A DNA stretch of 64,000 nucleotides from NCBI GenBank assembly GCA_029225065.1, contig JAQXVT010000037.1, positions 82,592 to 146,591 of the forward strand, given 5' to 3'. The notes under the pieces were generated by a model. The model was not told the origin of the DNA and did no database searches. It worked only from the letters and a program-made list of their open reading frames with translations. The DNA is from Lachnospiraceae bacterium (GTDB taxonomy: Bacteria; Bacillota; Clostridia; Lachnospirales; Lachnospiraceae). How positions within the stretch are numbered: the stretch's first letter is position 1; every line of letters begins with the position of its first letter. Shown here in pieces: positions 33,680 to 53,480 of the stretch. The translations under genes were made by a program, and so were the position numbers.

Positions 33680-34016
33680 GGGCTAGTAAAGGTTTCGACG
33701 GGGGTTATGAAGCTGGAGAAGCTATCCGCAGGTTGATGCGTCAAATCACAAATTAAAATTAAACGCTGAAGATAATTTAGCATACGCTGCCTAATGGCAG
33801 CTGTCTGACACAGAGCACCTGCACTTTGTGACCCAGGCATCGACGATGCAGGAAACGACATATGTTAAGCTTTGCGCATATGGGCGTATTATGAAGCTAC
33901 TGAAAGCAGAAGGCTGTCTGTTGTCGCCTGCCGGAGGGAATGTCAAATAACCGACTATGATAGTAGAAGGACAGTGGACTGGCTTTCGGACACGGGTTCG
34001 ACTCCCGTCTAGTCCA
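33680..34016 (+). ncRNA. ssrA: Transfer-messenger RNA
   Basis: Rescues stalled ribosomes together with SmpB. The acceptor stem pairs GGGCTAG (33680-33686) with CTAGTCC (34009-34015), then discriminator A; CCA is not encoded. The conserved 5' GGTTTCGACGGG and 3' T-arm GGGTTCGACTCCC are present. The tag frame ends at TAA 33792-33794 and reads ASNHKLKLNAEDNLAYAA if counted from GCG 33738; the exact resume codon cannot be fixed by eye. The AYAA end is the proteolysis signal. Length about 337 bases. Confidence 0.95.
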
Positions 34017-34018
34017 AT

Positions 34019-34064
34019 ATCATAAGGAGGGACCCACTCGCAGAGTGGGAGGATCCCTTATGAT
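34019..34064 (+). repeat. Dispersed intergenic repeat B directly after ssrA
   Basis: ATCATAAGG (34019-34027) and CCTTATGAT (34056-34064) flank AGGGACCCACTCGCAGAGTGGGAGGATC without the outer bases. It begins three bases after the tmRNA end and is nearly identical to the 30563 element in its outer arms. Confidence 0.7.
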
Positions 34065-40833: not shown

Positions 40834-41502
40834 ATGAGCTTTAATATTGCAATCGATGGACCGGCGGGGGCCGGAAAAAGTACGATCGCGAAGCTTGCGG
40901 CGGAAAAGCTTTCATTTATTTATGTGGATACGGGAGCAATGTACCGGGCGATTGCGCTCGGACTTCTGCGCAGTCATACCGATATTGCAGATGAAGCGGC
41001 GTTGAATGCAAGACTTGCGGAGATTTCTGTAGAGATCAGCTATGAGGATGGCCTGCAGCAGGTTTACTTAAATGGAGAAAATGTATCCGGTCTGATTCGG
41101 ACTGAGGAGGTCAGTGATATGACGAGCCGCAGCTCCGCGATTGCACAGGTACGGGCGAAGCTGACGGATCTGCAAAGAGATCTTGCAGCAAAGGAAAATG
41201 TGCTGATGGATGGACGCGATATCGGAACGACGATTCTGCCGAATGCGCAGCTGAAGATTTATCTGACCGCCAGCGTACAGGTGCGCGCACTGCGCCGCTA
41301 CAAAGAGTATCTGGCAAAAGGACAGAAAGAGCAGACACTTGCAGAAGTGGAAAAGGATGTAGAAAGCCGTGATTACCGTGACATGCACAGGGATGTATCG
41401 CCGCTTTGCCAGGCAGAGGATGCAGTTTATCTCGATTCATCGGAAATGACGATTGAGCAGGTGGTTGATCGCATTGTGGATCTGGCGAGGGAGCGGATGT
41501 GA
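40834..41502 (+). CDS. cmk: Cytidylate kinase
   Basis: Phosphorylates CMP and dCMP with ATP. 222 residues. P-loop GPAGAGKST (9-17), YVDTGAMYRA substrate segment, DGRDIGTT, and the LID region (RDYRDMHRDVSPLCQAEDAV). AGAGGGAGAAATGT precedes the ATG. It is followed one base after its stop by ispH, then rpsA, a conserved Clostridia gene string. Confidence 0.96.
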   Translation: MSFNIAIDGPAGAGKSTIAKLAAEKLSFIYVDTGAMYRAIALGLLRSHTDIADEAALNARLAEISVEISYEDGLQQVYLNGENVSGLIRTEEVSDMTSRSSAIAQVRAKLTDLQRDLAAKENVLMDGRDIGTTILPNAQLKIYLTASVQVRALRRYKEYLAKGQKEQTLAEVEKDVESRDYRDMHRDVSPLCQAEDAVYLDSSEMTIEQVVDRIVDLARERM

Positions 41503-41503
41503 G

Positions 41504-42352
41504 ATGAAGGTCATCGTAGCAAAGACGGCAGGATTCTGTTTTGGTGTGAAGCGCGCAGTCGATCAGGTATACCGTCAGATCGAAGAAGGAAAGAAGCCGA
41601 TTTACACGTATGGACCGATCATCCACAACGAGGAGGTTGTACGGGAGCTTTCGGAAAAGGGCGTGCAGATCGTAGAGACAGAGGAAGAGCTTCAGCAGCT
41701 GAAGGAGGGAACGGTGATTATCCGCTCACATGGTGTACCGGAAAAAATTTACCGGCTGATCGAAGCACAGGGGCTTGAGATGGTGGATGCAACCTGCCCG
41801 TTCGTAAAAAAAATTCATCGGATTGTACAGAGCCACAGTGCCGAGGGGCGGGAGATCGTGATTATCGGAAATGATGGCCATCCGGAGGTAGAGGGCATCA
41901 AAGGCTGGTGCAGCACCCCGGTGACAGTGATCGGAGAGGAAGCAGAAGCAGAAGCGTTTATCCGCGATCCTCATCCGGCAATCTGCGTTGTATCGCAAAC
42001 GACATTTAATTACAAGAAATTTGATAAATTGGTTGAAATTATCTCCAAAATGCGGTATGATAAATTAGATATTTTGAATACGATATGTAGTGCTACTGAA
42101 GAGCGGCAGTCTGAGGCCCGGCAGATCGCAGGTCAGGTCGACAGTATGATCGTGATCGGAGGCAGCCACAGCTCGAATACGAGAAAGCTATTCGAAATAT
42201 GCAAGAAAGAATGTGCAAATACTTACTATATACAAACACTGAAAGATTTGGATATTCGGCGATTGCCATCCAGGGGTTGCGTAGGTATTACAGCAGGGGC
42301 ATCGACCCCAAATAATTTAATTGAGGAGGTTTCAAAACAATGTCAGATTTAA
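41504..42352 (+). CDS. ispH: 4-hydroxy-3-methylbut-2-enyl diphosphate reductase
   Basis: [4Fe-4S] enzyme, last step of the MEP isoprenoid pathway. The track start lies inside cmk; ATG 41504 gives MKVIVAKTAGFCFGVKRAV and 282 residues. Cluster ligands Cys 12, Cys 98 (DATCPFV) and Cys 195 (NTICSAT) are present, as are RSHGVPE and GGSHSSNT. The stop lies 13 bases inside rpsA. In several Clostridia ispH and the S1 gene are fused; here they overlap in different frames. Confidence 0.95.
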   Translation: MKVIVAKTAGFCFGVKRAVDQVYRQIEEGKKPIYTYGPIIHNEEVVRELSEKGVQIVETEEELQQLKEGTVIIRSHGVPEKIYRLIEAQGLEMVDATCPFVKKIHRIVQSHSAEGREIVIIGNDGHPEVEGIKGWCSTPVTVIGEEAEAEAFIRDPHPAICVVSQTTFNYKKFDKLVEIISKMRYDKLDILNTICSATEERQSEARQIAGQVDSMIVIGGSHSSNTRKLFEICKKECANTYYIQTLKDLDIRRLPSRGCVGITAGASTPNNLIEEVSKQCQI

Positions 42353-43416
42353 GTTTTGAACAAATGCTGGAAGAATCATTCAAAACAATTCATAATGGAG
42401 AGGTAGTCGAAGGCACTGTTATTGATGTCAAAGAAGATGAAATCATCTTGAACATTGGATATAAGGCTGACGGTATCATTACCAGAAGCGAATATACGAA
42501 TGATTCTAATGCAGACCTTCGCGAGCTTGTCCACACTGGTGACAAGATGGAAGCAAAGGTTTTAAAGGTAAATGACGGAGATGGTCAGGTGCTTCTTACC
42601 TACAAGCGTCTTGCTGCTGAGAAGGGCAATAAGAGACTGGAAGAAGCATTCAACACACAGGAAGTTCTGAAAGCACCGGTTGTACAGGTTCTGACAGGCG
42701 GCCTGAGCGTTGTTGTTGACGAGGCAAGAGTATTCATCCCGGCAAGCCTTGTTTCTGATACTTACGAGAAGAATCTTGAGAAGTATGCAGGACAGGAGAT
42801 CGAATTCGTAATCACAGAGTTCAATCCGCGCAGAAGAAGAATCATCGGCGACCGCAAGCAGCTTCTTGTAGCAAAGAAGGCTGAGATGCAGAAAGAGCTC
42901 TTTGAGAGAATTCACGTTGGTGATGTAGTAGAAGGCGTTGTAAAGAACGTTACCGATTTCGGTGCATTCATCGACCTTGGCGGAGCAGACGGACTGCTTC
43001 ACATCTCTGAGATGTCCTGGGGCCATGTTGAGAACCCGAAGAAGGTGTTTAAGGTAGGCGAGAAGCTGAATGTCCTGATCAAGGATATCAACGGCGACAA
43101 GATCGCGCTGAGCCTGAAGTTTGAGGATCAGAATCCGTGGCTTACCGCAGCAGACAAGTATGCAGCAGGCAGTGTAGTAGAAGGCCGTGTAGCAAGAATG
43201 ACCGATTTCGGTGCATTTGTTGAGCTTGAGCCGGGCGTAGATGCTCTGCTTCATGTATCCCAGATCTCCCGTGAGCACGTTGAGAAGCCGTCCGACATCC
43301 TGAAGGTTGGCCAGGTAATCACTGCTAAGGTAGTAGATTTCAACGGCGAGGACAAGAAGATCAGCCTGAGCATGAAGGCTCTTGAGAACCAGGCTCCGGC
43401 AGAGGACGAGGAGTAA
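42340..43416 (+). CDS. rpsA: 30S ribosomal protein S1 homologue
   Basis: RNA-binding protein with four S1 domains (about 17-90, 105-170, 188-258 and 273-345), 358 residues, shorter than the six-domain E. coli protein but usual for Firmicutes. The third and fourth domains carry the clear VTDFGAFIDLGGADGLLHIS and MTDFGAFVELEPGVDALLHV pattern. TTGAGGAGG lies upstream, inside the ispH coding region. An extended perfect terminator follows. Confidence 0.95.
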   Translation: MSDLSFEQMLEESFKTIHNGEVVEGTVIDVKEDEIILNIGYKADGIITRSEYTNDSNADLRELVHTGDKMEAKVLKVNDGDGQVLLTYKRLAAEKGNKRLEEAFNTQEVLKAPVVQVLTGGLSVVVDEARVFIPASLVSDTYEKNLEKYAGQEIEFVITEFNPRRRRIIGDRKQLLVAKKAEMQKELFERIHVGDVVEGVVKNVTDFGAFIDLGGADGLLHISEMSWGHVENPKKVFKVGEKLNVLIKDINGDKIALSLKFEDQNPWLTAADKYAAGSVVEGRVARMTDFGAFVELEPGVDALLHVSQISREHVEKPSDILKVGQVITAKVVDFNGEDKKISLSMKALENQAPAEDEE

Positions 43417-43643: not shown

Positions 43644-44441
43644 TCAGCTCACATCTTTCTTCCGGATAACGCCCGCCGGGCATTTCTCCGCACATTTTCC
43701 GCATTTTGTACACTTCTCATAATCGATATGAGCCACGTTGTTTTCAACGGTGATAGCGCCGGATTCGCACTGTTTCTCACACAGCTTGCAGGCAAGACAG
43801 CCGGCCTTGCAGACCTTCTTGACTGCGGCACCGCGGTCATGGCTGGAGCAGCGGACTGCGTAAACCGCAGATTCCGGAACAAGCTCAATCAGATGCCGCG
43901 GACAGGCTGCCACACATTTTCCGCAGGCCTTGCATTTGGAACGGTCCACACTTGCAACGCCATGATTGACGCTGATTGCACCGAACGGGCAGGCAGAAGC
44001 GCAGGTACCAAAGCCGATACAGCCATAATCACAGGTCCACGGGGAGAGTCCGCTGCTGACAGCGGAAGCGCAATCATGAATGCCGACGTAATGGCATCTG
44101 GCCGCTGCATTTTCACAGTCACCGGAGCATTTGACGTAAGCGGCGACTTTCTCTGTCTTTTCCATCTGAAGACCGAGCATCCGGCTGATCTTTTCTGCGA
44201 CGGGATCTCCGCCGACCGGACAGGCGTTTATCGGTGCCTCCTGATTGGCGATAGCCGATGCAAGTGCATCGCATCCGGCATAACCGCAGCCGCCGCAGTT
44301 GTTGCCGGGCAGGCATTCGCGAATCGCAATCTGTTTTTCATCTACTTCTACTTTGAATTTTTTATCGACTGTGACCAGCAGGATGCCGATCAGCATGCCG
44401 ATGACAGCCACAGCAAGCGTGGCAATAATGATCGATGACAT
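43644..44441 (-). CDS. rnfB: Rnf complex subunit B (iron-sulfur)
   Basis: Electron-entry subunit for reduced ferredoxin in the Rnf membrane complex, which couples ferredoxin:NAD+ oxidoreduction to Na+ or H+ export. 265 residues: one N-terminal membrane helix (4-24), the Fe-S binding segment with Cys 43, 49, 52 and 57 (CLPGNNCGGCGYAGC), then several [4Fe-4S] motifs of the CxxCxxxCP type, including CKACGKCVAACP and CTKCGKCAEKCP. Last gene of the operon; 71 bases after rnfA. Confidence 0.96.
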   Translation of the reverse strand: MSSIIIATLAVAVIGMLIGILLVTVDKKFKVEVDEKQIAIRECLPGNNCGGCGYAGCDALASAIANQEAPINACPVGGDPVAEKISRMLGLQMEKTEKVAAYVKCSGDCENAAARCHYVGIHDCASAVSSGLSPWTCDYGCIGFGTCASACPFGAISVNHGVASVDRSKCKACGKCVAACPRHLIELVPESAVYAVRCSSHDRGAAVKKVCKAGCLACKLCEKQCESGAITVENNVAHIDYEKCTKCGKCAEKCPAGVIRKKDVS

Positions 44442-44512: not shown

Positions 44513-45094
44513 TTACAGTGATAGTCCGGCAAAGCCCATGAATGCGATTGACATCAGAGCTGCGGACAGAAGTACAACGGGTGCGCCGCGGAACGGAAGC
44601 GGAACGCTTGCTTCATCGATGCGTTCGCGGATACCGGCGAGCAGGACGATTGAGATTGTGTAGCCGATTGCCGTACCGAAGCCTGCGGTCACGCTCTGGA
44701 TGAAATTGTAACCGTCCTGTACATTGGTCAGTGCGACACCGAGTACGGCACAGTTGGTGGTGATCAGAGGCAGGTAGATGCCGAGTGCGTTGTAGATCGC
44801 CGGGGAAGTCTTTTTCAGGAACATCTCAACGATCTGTACAAGCGCCGCGATGACAAGAATGAAGACGATGGTTTCCAGGTACTCCAGATGCAGCGGAACC
44901 AGCAGGAAATCATACAGCAGGCTGGCTACGCCGGAGGAGAGTGTAATAACGAAGATAACGGCTACTCCAAGGCTTAAAGAAGTCTTGATTTGTTTGGAAA
45001 CGCCGAGAAACGAGCAGATTCCAAGGAACTGGCTCAGCACGACGTTGTTGACGAGAGCCGTGGTAATGATGATCAGGATTAATGATGTATTCAT
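44513..45094 (-). CDS. rnfA: Rnf complex subunit A
   Basis: Integral membrane subunit, 193 residues with six helices; homologous to RnfE and to NqrE. Family segments: NNVVLSQFLGICSFLGVSKQ near the N-terminus and TNCAVLGVAL in the middle, which carry the Cys residues that hold an intramembrane Fe-S cluster with RnfE. Starts 5 bases after rnfE. Confidence 0.95.
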   Translation of the reverse strand: MNTSLILIIITTALVNNVVLSQFLGICSFLGVSKQIKTSLSLGVAVIFVITLSSGVASLLYDFLLVPLHLEYLETIVFILVIAALVQIVEMFLKKTSPAIYNALGIYLPLITTNCAVLGVALTNVQDGYNFIQSVTAGFGTAIGYTISIVLLAGIRERIDEASVPLPFRGAPVVLLSAALMSIAFMGFAGLSL

Positions 45095-45099
45095 ATGGC

Positions 45100-45777
45100 T
45101 CAGCCCTCCTTATTTTCATTCTGACAGCCGGATTTGCTGCAGTGGTTGCAGCAGCCGTCACAGCCCTTGACAAGGTCTGCGGAATTGTTTTTGATATGTA
45201 AGGCGTTCATGACCGCAATAATCAGTGCGATGACGAGAAATGCACCGGGAGCCTTTACAAAGATTGCAATCGGGGATACCGAATCCGGAAGTACGGCAAA
45301 TCCGAAGAGCTTGCCGGAGCCGAGCAGTTCACGGATCATACCGATCAGAGTCAGTGCGATTGTAAAGCCAAGTCCCATTCCAAGTCCGTCAAAGAGTGCG
45401 AGTCCCGGGCCGACCTTGTTCGCGTAGGCTTCCGCACGGCCGAGGATGATGCAGTTTACAACGATCAGTGGAATGTAGATACCAAGCGAAGCGTAAAGTC
45501 CCGGAGCGTATGCCTGAAGCAGCAGGTCAACAACCGTAACAAGAGATGCTACGATGACGATGTAGGCCGGAAGGCGTACCTGATCCGGAATAATTTTCCG
45601 CATCAGGGAGATAATCAGGTTGGAAAAGATCAGAACCGCAAGGGTGGAAAGCCCCATGCCGATTCCGTTGATGGCGGAGGTGGTGACAGCCAGAGTCGGA
45701 CACATGCCGAGCATCAGGACAAGGCTGGGATTTTCTTTCACCACGCCGTTGTAAATTCGTTCTGTGTATTTGTTCAT
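45100..45777 (-). CDS. rnfE: Rnf complex subunit E
   Basis: Integral membrane subunit paired with RnfA, 225 residues with six helices. Family segments: NPSLVLMLGMCPTLAVTTSA and VNCIILGRAEA. The C-terminus has an extra Cys-rich cytoplasmic tail (CDGCCNHCSKSGC), which is beyond the usual NqrD/RnfE end. Confidence 0.95.
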   Translation of the reverse strand: MNKYTERIYNGVVKENPSLVLMLGMCPTLAVTTSAINGIGMGLSTLAVLIFSNLIISLMRKIIPDQVRLPAYIVIVASLVTVVDLLLQAYAPGLYASLGIYIPLIVVNCIILGRAEAYANKVGPGLALFDGLGMGLGFTIALTLIGMIRELLGSGKLFGFAVLPDSVSPIAIFVKAPGAFLVIALIIAVMNALHIKNNSADLVKGCDGCCNHCSKSGCQNENKEG

Positions 45778-45792: not shown

Positions 45793-47331
45793 TTACTGGA
45801 TCGACGATGCATAGAAAGCAAGCGCGGTGTTGACTGCATTTACAACAGCACCGGACGAGGTCGATGCACCGGAAACGGAATCGATCTCATTGTCTGCGGT
45901 GGAACCGCCGGCTTTGTTTAGGGTAAATGCATCGGTATTGACTCCTGCGAACTGACTGCGGAAAGCATCCTCGCCGCAGAGCATACCCATACCTGCCGTC
46001 TCGTGCAGCTCAGTGAAGGAGATGCCAAGTACGGTGCCTTCTGTGTCAAGTCCGACAGAGAGTGTGATTGTTCCGTCGTATCCGTCGCCGCTGGAAACAC
46101 TGATGACGTATCCGACGGTGGTGTCTGCGGCATCTTTTCCGACCATGACGCTGTTGATATAGGTCTTGCCGAATTTCTCGTCGTAAATGTCGCCGCCGAG
46201 GGCTTCTACCTTTGCATTGATTGCGTCGTCGGTTACAAAGGTCTCTGCATCCGGACAGACTTCTTTGTAGGAGGCTGCGTTTGCAGCGAGCTTCTGCTCG
46301 TCGATTTTATCCTTCGTCAGGAAATAAACACTGCTGAGTGCAAGTCCGGCACACAGGGTGATGATTGTCAGATTGATGGCAGCCTTTGGAAACTGCGGTT
46401 TGCCGGAGGTGCTGCGGTAGCCGAGCGGTTTCGGCACGGAAATCTTATCGATAAACGGAACAACCATGTTTGCGATGATGATCGCATAGCTGACCGAATC
46501 GGCAGAGCTTCCGTAGACACGGAAGAGACCGGCGAGAATACCGGTAAGAGCACCGTAGAGCAGCTGGCCGCGGGAAGTGACCGGGCTGGTGACCGGATCG
46601 GTTGCCATAAAGAAAGCGCCCATCAGCACACCACCGCCGCAGATGTGGATCAGCAGATAATTCGGATCAAAGCCCTGTCCGCCAAAGAGTCCCATAAATA
46701 CAGCAAAAGCAGCTACAAATGCAGCCGGAATCTCGAATGTGATACCGCCGGTGATCAAAAGGAAGATACCGCCGATCAGAAGGGCAATGGCGCTTCCGCC
46801 GATGACACCTGTCGTGTAGCCAAATGCAGTCTGGGAAAGGCTTACGGCTTCGCCGGCACGCAGTGCGGCAAGCGGAGTCGCGGAACTCATGCCGTCCACG
46901 GAAAAGTTTGTCATGGCGCTTCCGAAGGAGATCAGCAAAAAGCAGCGTCCGGTCAGGGCCGGGTTCATGAAGTTTTTGCCGAGTCCGCCGAAAAAGCATT
47001 TTACAAACAGAATTGCAAAGACGGAACCAAGACACGGAAGGTAGAGCGGTACGGTCGGGGAGAGCGAGAGTCCCAGAAGCAGACCGGTGACAACGGCACT
47101 GCCGTCCTTGATGGTCATTGGTTTTTTCGCGGCCCTGTCGTAGAGGAACTCCGTAGCGACCGCGGAAGCGACGCTGATCAGCAGGATCAGAAACGCGTGG
47201 ATGCCGTAGCGGTAAATGCCGAACACGGTAGCCGGAAGCAAAGCCAGCGCCACATCGGTCATCACAGCGCCGGTGGTCAGGCGATGACGGATGTGAGGAC
47301 TGGAAGACATATTCAGTAGTTTTTCATTCAT
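45793..47331 (-). CDS. rnfDG: Fused RnfD-RnfG subunit of the Rnf complex
   Basis: One 512-residue polypeptide joins two subunits that are normally separate. Residues 1 to about 310 are RnfD: membrane helices, KNFMNPALTGRCFLL and the FMN attachment site DGMSSATPLA (Thr 152). After GYRSTSGKPQFP, residues 318-512 are RnfG: a membrane helix (about 321-338), then the periplasmic-side FMN domain with THE-like ELHETAGMG and the ApbE target DSVSGAS (484-490). ATG 47331 has GAGGGA upstream; GTG 47346 overlapping the rnfC stop is an alternative. No stop or frameshift separates the halves. Confidence 0.92.
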   Translation of the reverse strand: MNEKLLNMSSSPHIRHRLTTGAVMTDVALALLPATVFGIYRYGIHAFLILLISVASAVATEFLYDRAAKKPMTIKDGSAVVTGLLLGLSLSPTVPLYLPCLGSVFAILFVKCFFGGLGKNFMNPALTGRCFLLISFGSAMTNFSVDGMSSATPLAALRAGEAVSLSQTAFGYTTGVIGGSAIALLIGGIFLLITGGITFEIPAAFVAAFAVFMGLFGGQGFDPNYLLIHICGGGVLMGAFFMATDPVTSPVTSRGQLLYGALTGILAGLFRVYGSSADSVSYAIIIANMVVPFIDKISVPKPLGYRSTSGKPQFPKAAINLTIITLCAGLALSSVYFLTKDKIDEQKLAANAASYKEVCPDAETFVTDDAINAKVEALGGDIYDEKFGKTYINSVMVGKDAADTTVGYVISVSSGDGYDGTITLSVGLDTEGTVLGISFTELHETAGMGMLCGEDAFRSQFAGVNTDAFTLNKAGGSTADNEIDSVSGASTSSGAVVNAVNTALAFYASSIQ

Positions 47332-47342
47332 TTTCCGTTCCC

Positions 47343-48677
47343 TCACTTTCTTTTAGCGGCCATGATTGCACCCTTTGTCTGTTTGAAGAGCTGCATCAGC
47401 GGGCGCTTGGCCGGACAGATGTAGGTACAGGAACCGCAGGCGATGCAGTCCAGTCCGTACAGCTTTTTCTCATAGCGCTCATAATCCTTTCGTTCGGCAG
47501 CCTCTGCCATCATCTGCGGCACAAGGCCGATCGGACAGACGTGACCGCAGCGGCCGCAGCGCAGACAGGCGGTCATCTGCTCTTCAGCGAGTTCGACTTC
47601 ATCCTGTGCGAGAACGGTCAGTGCATTGTTGTTTTTGGCGATCGGGACATCGAGTGTTGACATGGCGATTCCCATCATCGGACCGCCGCAGAGAATCTTT
47701 TTTGCGATGCATTCCGGCTTGATGCCTCCGGCTGCCTCGAGCAGTTCGCGGCAGGAGGTACCGATCCGTACCTCCATCGTGTGCGGCTTTACAACCGCAT
47801 CACCGGAAACCGTAAAGAGACGTGACATCAGCGGTTCTGATTTACAGACTGCGCGGTAGATGGCGTTTAATGAGCTGACGTTGCAGACAACACAGCCCAG
47901 ATCTGCCGGGAGCTGTCCGAAGCGCAGCTGTCTTCCGGTGACAACACCGATCAGGTTTCGCTCGCCGCCCTCCGGATACTTTGCTTTTACTTCAAGTACG
48001 GAAATATTGGAATCGGAAGCGCAGGCTTTTGTCATGGCTGCGATTGCCTCCGGTTTGTTGTCTTCGATAGCGATTACACCATTTGCATTCGGGAAGAGCC
48101 GGAGCACGAGACGCATGCCTTCGACGATTCCGTCGCTTCTGGAGCGCATCAGCTGATCGTCGCAGGTGATGTAAGGTTCGCATTCCGAACCGTTTGCGAT
48201 GACGTAATCAATCTGCTCCGGATTGCGCGGAGCAAGCTTTACGTGAGTCGGGAATCCGGCTCCGCCAAGACCGACGATACCGGCTGCCTTGATTGCATCC
48301 AGAATCTGCGGCCCACTCATCGAGGTGTCATCACGTTCCGTTCCGACCCCGGGGGCAAGTGTAAACAATCCGTCGTTTTCAACAACGATGCAGGTGGCTC
48401 TTCCGCCGTTTACCGTGTGGCGTTCCTCGATGGCTTTTACCTTACCGGAGCAGGAACAGATGATGTTTGCGGATACGAAGCCGTCGGCTTCCGCAATCAG
48501 CTGACCGGCAAGAACGGGATCTCCTTTTTTTACAACTGGTTTTGCTGGTTTTCCGATGTGCTGATTGACCGGAAAGACAAGTTCTCCTTTGGGGAGAAAT
48601 TCTTCGATCGGACAATCTTTGGAGAGGTCTTTGTGTCCGTCTGGATGGACACCTCCCCGAAATGTTTTGTGACTCAT
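47343..48677 (-). CDS. rnfC: Rnf complex subunit C (NADH-binding, iron-sulfur)
   Basis: Peripheral cytoplasmic subunit that passes electrons to NAD+. 444 residues. GIVGLGGAGFPTHVK (134-147) is the NADH/FMN-binding glycine loop; two [4Fe-4S] motifs follow, Cys 371/374/377/381 (CLRCGRCGHVCP) and Cys 411/414/417/421 (CIACGSCTYICP). N-terminal GGVHPDGHK is the usual RnfC opening. First gene of the operon; AGGAGGT precedes the ATG. Confidence 0.96.
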   Translation of the reverse strand: MSHKTFRGGVHPDGHKDLSKDCPIEEFLPKGELVFPVNQHIGKPAKPVVKKGDPVLAGQLIAEADGFVSANIICSCSGKVKAIEERHTVNGGRATCIVVENDGLFTLAPGVGTERDDTSMSGPQILDAIKAAGIVGLGGAGFPTHVKLAPRNPEQIDYVIANGSECEPYITCDDQLMRSRSDGIVEGMRLVLRLFPNANGVIAIEDNKPEAIAAMTKACASDSNISVLEVKAKYPEGGERNLIGVVTGRQLRFGQLPADLGCVVCNVSSLNAIYRAVCKSEPLMSRLFTVSGDAVVKPHTMEVRIGTSCRELLEAAGGIKPECIAKKILCGGPMMGIAMSTLDVPIAKNNNALTVLAQDEVELAEEQMTACLRCGRCGHVCPIGLVPQMMAEAAERKDYERYEKKLYGLDCIACGSCTYICPAKRPLMQLFKQTKGAIMAAKRK

Positions 48678-52209: not shown

Positions 52210-53244
52210 TCATTTTGTGGCATCCGGCCACCCGGATGACGCAGTCATCTCCAGATCATCCGTCACAAACAGTGCCTCGATGCCGTCCAGAGATTCGATG
52301 AGTGCCATTCCTTTTTCGGGGCCGAGTACAAAACAGGTGGTGCTTAAGGCATCGCCGTCGACGGAGTGCTCCGAGAGGATTGTGACGCTGGCGAGTCCGT
52401 TTTCGACGGGATATCCGTCGACGGGACTTAAAATATGGTGGTAGCGTTTGCCGTTTTCTGTGAAGTAGCGCTCGTAAGTGCCTGAGGTGACGATGGAAGC
52501 GTCGCGGCAGGAAATTGTGGTGAGTGGCTCTGTAGCATCCGGCTCGGGACGGCGGATTCCGATGCGGAAATCCTGATTCTGCGATTTGCCTCCGATCGTG
52601 AGGATATTCCCACCAAGGTCGATGAGAGCGCTTGCGTATCCGGCAGAGACGAGATCTTCCTTTAACAGATCGGCAATATAGCCCTTTGCGATTCCGCCAA
52701 GATCGATCGAAGTGTCAGGATCCAGGAGCGTTACGGTCGTACCGTCGAGCTGTACGTTTTCGTAGCCAACGTGAGAAAGCGCATTGGAGAGATCATTCTC
52801 ATCCGGCACCGTTCCGGTTTTCTGGTCGGCATCAAAGTTCCACAGAGCGATTACCGGCGCGATTGTGATGTCGAAGGCACCGTCTGAGAGGCGGCAGTAG
52901 GAAAGCGCTTTTTCAAGCAGATCGGCTGTTTCTGATGAGACTTCGACCGGCTTTCCGCCGCTGTGATTGATGTTCCACACATCGCTGCCCTCCTGCGTGC
53001 GGGAGAGCAGTTTTTCATAGGAGGCAAGACGGGAAAAGCACTCCTCAAGGGGTGCTTTATTTTCGGTGTCATAGAGCGTGATCGAGACAACGGTATCAAG
53101 AAAAAATCCGGTTTTGGACACGGAGACCGTCTTTTTTTCACAGCCGGAGAGCGTTCCGGCAGCAATGAGAAGCAGGAAAACCAGTGCAGCTGACGTGGCT
53201 TTGCACCTGCGATAACTATTTTGGGAAATTCTGGAAAAAAGCAT
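52210..53244 (-). CDS. apbE: FAD:protein FMN transferase (ApbE lipoprotein)
   Basis: Covalently attaches FMN to Thr or Ser in D-x3-GA(S/T) motifs of proteins such as RnfD, RnfG and NqrB/C, on the outer side of the membrane. The start at ATG 53244 has AAAGGA six bases upstream (344 residues); the track's start adds 25 residues without a ribosome site. Lipobox LSGC with Cys 35. Family segments: FFLDTVVSITLYD, ALWNFD, SIDLGGIAKGYI and the C-terminal YHHILSPVDGYPVENGL and VDGDALSTTCFVLGPEKG. The rnf operon with its fused RnfDG lies 4 kb away on the same strand. Confidence 0.95.
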   Translation of the reverse strand: MLFSRISQNSYRRCKATSAALVFLLLIAAGTLSGCEKKTVSVSKTGFFLDTVVSITLYDTENKAPLEECFSRLASYEKLLSRTQEGSDVWNINHSGGKPVEVSSETADLLEKALSYCRLSDGAFDITIAPVIALWNFDADQKTGTVPDENDLSNALSHVGYENVQLDGTTVTLLDPDTSIDLGGIAKGYIADLLKEDLVSAGYASALIDLGGNILTIGGKSQNQDFRIGIRRPEPDATEPLTTISCRDASIVTSGTYERYFTENGKRYHHILSPVDGYPVENGLASVTILSEHSVDGDALSTTCFVLGPEKGMALIESLDGIEALFVTDDLEMTASSGWPDATK

Positions 53245-53480
53245 AGAGTTCCTTTCTACTGTTTTTATAGTAATCGCTGATATTTGCTTTGGATAAAAAA
53301 CGTTTGGAATTGAAATCATGACAGCGCGGAAATGCTGCCTTTCATCGGATAGATTTCGAATTTCACTGTAACATATTTCGAACTTCGCCGCAAGTAAGGA
53401 AAGTGAAAATGCGCTCTTACCAGAAATGATAGCACGTTTGCCTGAACTGTGGAATGAATGATGAAAATTTCAAGACTTTC

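Follow-up and report, generated by a model that had tools for sequence, protein, structure and literature searches.

The window analysed here, a stretch of 64,000 nucleotides from a Lachnospiraceae bacterium, carries a contiguous Rnf operon in the order rnfC-rnfDG-rnfE-rnfA-rnfB, in which the genes lie on one strand and all six Rnf subunits are encoded. The genes, the parts of the fused gene and an apbE-like gene upstream are as follows.

52210–53319, minus strand: apbE-like gene for an FAD:protein FMN transferase (PF02424, E 4e-91) with a lipobox-like N-terminus (LSGC)
47343–48677, minus strand: rnfC (TIGR01945, 499.8 bits)
45796–47331, minus strand: rnfDG, a fused RnfD-RnfG of 512 aa (ORF, Pfam, NCBIfam)
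46438–47331, minus strand: RnfD module, residues 1–298, membrane helices, the riboflavin/FMN-binding subunit (PF03116, structure matches, model)
46876–46878, minus strand: Thr152, the residue of the RnfD module predicted to bind FMN covalently, in the motif DGMSSATPL
46393–46437, minus strand: putative cytoplasmic linker, residues 299–313, basic and of low pLDDT (model, composition)
45796–46392, minus strand: RnfG module, residues 314–512, with a stalk/TM helix (314–358) and the FMN_bind domain (417–504) (PF04205, structure matches, model)
45862–45864, minus strand: Ser490, the residue of the RnfG module predicted to bind FMN covalently, in the motif DSVSGAS(T); this position is Thr in classical RnfG
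45100–45777, minus strand: rnfE (TIGR01948)
44513–45094, minus strand: rnfA (TIGR01943)
43644–44441, minus strand: rnfB, with multiple 4Fe-4S domains (TIGR01944, Pfam)

The rnfDG gene is a single uninterrupted frame of 512 codons that, read from the ATG at 47331, encodes a protein of 53.1 kDa and ends at a stop codon at 45793–45795; a GTG at 47346 is an alternative start that would add five residues (ORF 45793–47346). The initial annotation had described RnfD as running unbroken into RnfG, and Pfam indeed places both domains in one frame, with neither a stop nor a frameshift at the junction in the window's frame. Its coordinates, 45793–47331, agree with the ATG reading, to which we add the strand (minus) that had been missing. 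The plus-strand frame of this interval is unrelated and contains a stop. RnfD and RnfG had also been said to be separate in classical operons, and the same is seen in characterised Rnf operons.

The RnfD module matches PF03116 over residues 8–304 (E 5e-100, 335 bits, cut-off 27.7) and the NCBIfam rnfD model TIGR01946 from residue 11 to 304 with 253.6 bits, above the cut-off of 207. The RnfG module matches PF04205 (FMN_bind) over residues 417–504 (E 1e-15, 58.6 bits, cut-off 22). Its top-scoring RnfG model is the NCBIfam rnfG model TIGR01947, and this match spans positions 2–185 of 187 with a score of 91.1 bits (cut-off 102). Sequence searches of solved structures gave RnfD of C. tetanomorphum and A. 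woodii as the nearest to residues 1–304, and RnfG of the same two organisms as the nearest to residues 317–510. Membership of the Na+-NQR family was considered and rejected, as the nqrB and nqrC models score 130 and 31.8 bits against cut-offs of 349.9 and 144, respectively, and the operon has rnfC and rnfB. No second PF03116 or PF04205 protein was found in the rest of the same genome, a draft of 88 contigs, and the fusion is thus the only source of both subunits.

We modelled the fusion with AlphaFold2 using 60 fused homologues (mean pLDDT 78, pTM 0.59). In the model, the RnfD helices stop at residue 298 and are followed by a low-confidence segment (residues 299–313), a long helix (residues 314–358), the RnfG α/β domain and, finally, a C-terminal helix. 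A hydropathy peak lies at residues 314–339, before the flavin domain of the RnfG module. Foldseek searches with the model matched RnfD chains (9eri_D and 7zc6_D, TM-score on target up to 0.86) and, as separate hits, RnfG chains (9eri_G and 7zc6_G, up to 0.79). The DNA encoding the linker overlaps the end of the interval 46330–46420 that had initially been marked as the junction. Residues 295–316 carry five Lys or Arg versus one Asp or Glu, and this basic character fits a cytoplasmic loop. In the known Rnf topology RnfG is anchored via its N-terminal helix and has its head outside, and the linker is for this reason assigned to the cytoplasmic side. In known Rnf structures, RnfA, RnfE and RnfB are the packing partners of the RnfG helix, and contacts between RnfG and RnfD are only minor (PMC9588780), which leaves the linker with a gap to cross. 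The fused proteins have at least 42 residues between the end of RnfD and the conserved T[KE]xxI motif that closes the RnfG helix (42–64 in the window's clade, 43–92 in other fusions), and this floor of 42 residues may mirror the gap that needs bridging.

Both flavinylation motifs are intact in the fused protein. Thr152 is, by motif, the counterpart of Thr153 in C. tetanomorphum RnfD (PMC9588780), and the RnfG module satisfies the acceptor motif definition D-x-x-[S/T]-G-A-[S/T] (PMC12052999). That the RnfG acceptor is a Ser is a detail absent from the initial annotation. With the proteins aligned at the flavinylation motif, all 38 separate RnfG proteins have Thr as the acceptor, as do 9 of the 10 fusions that fall outside the window's clade. 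Within the window's clade, 72 of 86 members, the window included, have Ser and the other 14 keep Thr; the clade holds close relatives and these counts are not independent events. The tree described below requires four changes of the acceptor residue. A strict coupling of Ser to fusion is contradicted by the Thr of the 14 clade members and of the nine other fusions. Ser is accepted by ApbE, although Thr is preferred (PMC12052999, PMC8238504). The earlier proposal of two covalent flavins on one chain stands as far as the motifs are concerned, but the attachment is predicted only and the RnfG acceptor is not the usual Thr.

The apbE-like gene lies 3.5 kb upstream of rnfC, with an exonuclease-like ORF and two ABC-transporter ORFs on the other strand in between, and its product is likely to attach the covalent flavins of the fusion. 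About nine of the 80 relatives have ApbE right beside their rnf operon. The C-DG-E-A-B order itself is shared by nearly all fused relatives, 80 in total, that have enough flanking sequence, and incomplete sets fit short contigs. Genes for cmk, ispH and an S1-domain protein stand in a row at 40834–43416 (plus strand), convergent with the rnf operon, and convergent ispH/S1 neighbours recur in eight or nine fused relatives. The window also holds a tmRNA gene at 33680–34019 (plus strand), with the tag AEDNLAYAA.

A scan of genome contigs identified 80 relatives, all but a few of them end-to-end matches, at 55–80% identity. Together with loci from whole genomes, the scan gave 94 non-redundant complete loci with both modules in a single open frame. 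The hunt for the same fusion in related genomes, which the initial annotation had proposed, returned about 90 open-frame homologues from independent assemblies. Of 397 sampled genomes from the window's family, 21 show a stop-free full-length match, among them a second species of the window's genus, and most others have separate genes. One genome of the family (G858) contains two full-length fused rnfDG genes, on contigs C31 and C96, which may be two operons or may come from mixed strains in the assembly. The order sample adds seven fused genomes from a second family (f8), one more genome (G786), from a third family, appears fused in the class sample (391 genomes), and the phylum sample (300 genomes) contained only two fusions, both from the window's own family. 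Three candidates from the order sample (G213, G312 and G294) are in fact separate same-frame genes with a stop between them.

We placed these proteins on a tree of 77 rows built from the concatenated D and G modules, a quick tree with open forks, which requires five changes between the fused and the separate state, at least three of them forced by well-supported branches. The window's fused clade (support 100, stem of 0.46 changes per column) is nested in a wider all-fused set (support 98). A single ancestral fusion was rejected, as a tree with the fusions forced into one clade is worse by 72 log units (p-AU 0.015, for a group named after the tree had been seen). That the fusion arose more than once is well supported, while the exact number of events is not fixed by the tree. 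In several unfused relatives, the rnfD stop abuts an in-frame rnfG ATG, for example GGAGGAGAGAAATAGATGAAC; the Shine-Dalgarno-like sequence then lies within the end of rnfD and the ATG comes straight after the stop, as in the unfused junction GGGAAAGGAGGAGAGAAATAGATGAAC. In such relatives one stop-codon substitution would therefore fuse rnfD and rnfG, and loss of the rnfD stop codon is the most likely route to the fusion. At the window's junction there is neither an ATG nor a start accompanied by a Shine-Dalgarno-like site, only one GTG that lacks such a site, and the fusion thus looks fixed. Four other fused loci (L072, L107, L109 and L139) have retained, close to the junction, an ATG that is in frame and accompanied by a Shine-Dalgarno-like site, and might make RnfG alone besides the fusion.

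We consider it highly probable that the window encodes a genuine, lineage-fixed rnfD-rnfG fusion in an ordinary rnfCDGEAB operon, and hence an Rnf pump in which D and G are tethered. In characterised Rnf complexes, electrons pass from the RnfA/E iron-sulfur centre to the FMN of RnfG, then to the FMN and riboflavin of RnfD and on to RnfC, and the RnfG head shuttles between RnfA/E and RnfD (PMC9588780, PMC12174285, PMC11889175). One chain would thus bear the extracytoplasmic half of the Rnf path, the RnfG-domain FMN followed by the RnfD FMN and riboflavin. The RnfD C-terminus and the RnfG N-terminus would both lie on the cytoplasmic side, where the short basic linker would keep the topology, and with a tether at this side only the RnfG head would still be free to swing between the RnfA/E cluster and RnfD. 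In the complex, ferredoxin:NAD+ electron transfer is predicted to remain coupled to ion pumping. We infer that the fused protein assembles, receives its flavins and has its linker in the cytoplasm. Function is expected to be normal, with the fusion adding at most co-folding and a fixed stoichiometry of subunits that are already 1:1. The fixed 1:1 ratio claimed initially is no gain in itself, as Rnf structures already contain one D and one G. Fixation was presumably neutral or due to a mild assembly advantage.

The genome is a draft of 88 contigs and in some relatives a single stop codon is all that lies between rnfD and rnfG, so a missed stop or an indel could in principle have joined two genes. 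The chance of such an assembly or sequencing error is nonetheless negligible, given the approximately 90 full-length fused homologues with an open junction, most 55–80% identical and from independent assemblies, the second fused genome of the same genus, and a window junction that lacks an ATG or a Shine-Dalgarno-like start signal. The chain might instead be cut after synthesis, or RnfG might also be made from an internal start, to yield the two usual subunits. The model shows an exposed linker of low confidence, and near the junction of 9 of the 99 fused loci there is still a start codon accompanied by a Shine-Dalgarno-like site. For the window we regard this as quite improbable, because it has no ATG near the junction, just the one GTG without a Shine-Dalgarno-like site, and a cytoplasmic linker would be away from signal or sortase-type proteases.

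Also unlikely, in our judgement, is an altered Rnf subtype in which the tether and the Thr-to-Ser acceptor tune the rate, direction or coupling ion of the RnfG shuttle. The other subunits and motifs are all conventional, Ser acceptors are known ApbE substrates (PMC8238504, PMC12052999), and the Thr found in 14 of 86 clade members and in 9 of 10 other fusions indicates that the traits are not strictly linked. In favour of such a subtype are the long, fully supported stem of the fused clade (0.46 changes per column) and a Ser acceptor that is rare elsewhere. A tethered but otherwise ordinary Rnf pump remains the preferred reading. The fusion is a lineage-level variant in the architecture of a known complex, one that has arisen repeatedly, and it looks like an ordinary Rnf repackaged, not a new machine.

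In Rnf/Nqr pumps, the RnfG head has been proposed to act as a swinging shuttle, and the repeated tethering of this shuttle to its acceptor on the cytoplasmic side offers a natural experiment on how much freedom the shuttle needs. The fusion would also be a handy single-chain construct with both predicted covalent flavins. As its rnfG score falls under the NCBIfam cut-off, best-model annotation would label the fusion RnfD, and name-based surveys of rnfG may miscount Rnf as incomplete. The finding should be useful for annotation and of moderate interest to Rnf specialists. We found no description of an RnfD-RnfG fusion in the open-access papers searched; one may exist in subscription papers.

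The Rnf complexes of C. tetanomorphum (PDB 7ZC6) and A. woodii (PDB 9ERI–9ERL) have the same subunits, their chains D and G match the fusion by sequence and fold, and both flavinylation motifs are in place in the fusion too. In these complexes, however, D and G are made separately and RnfG has Thr as its acceptor (Thr164, Thr185), whereas the window has one chain and Ser490. Na+-NQR resembles the window's complex in its homologous D/B and G/C subunits (NqrB/NqrC), covalent FMN and mobile shuttle domain, but has NqrA/NqrF where the window has RnfC and RnfB. The Nqr/Rnf-like two-subunit systems of Meheust et al. 2021 (PMC8238504) also carry a fusion on the NqrB/RnfD membrane domain, but they join it to a cytosolic NAD-binding domain (PF00175), keep the RnfG-like protein separate and have only two apparent subunits per gene cluster. 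Finally, multi-flavinylated RnfG proteins (PMC8238504) likewise place more than one covalent flavin on a single chain of the Rnf complex; in these the extra FMN domains are on RnfG, whereas in the window the second flavin would be RnfD's own.
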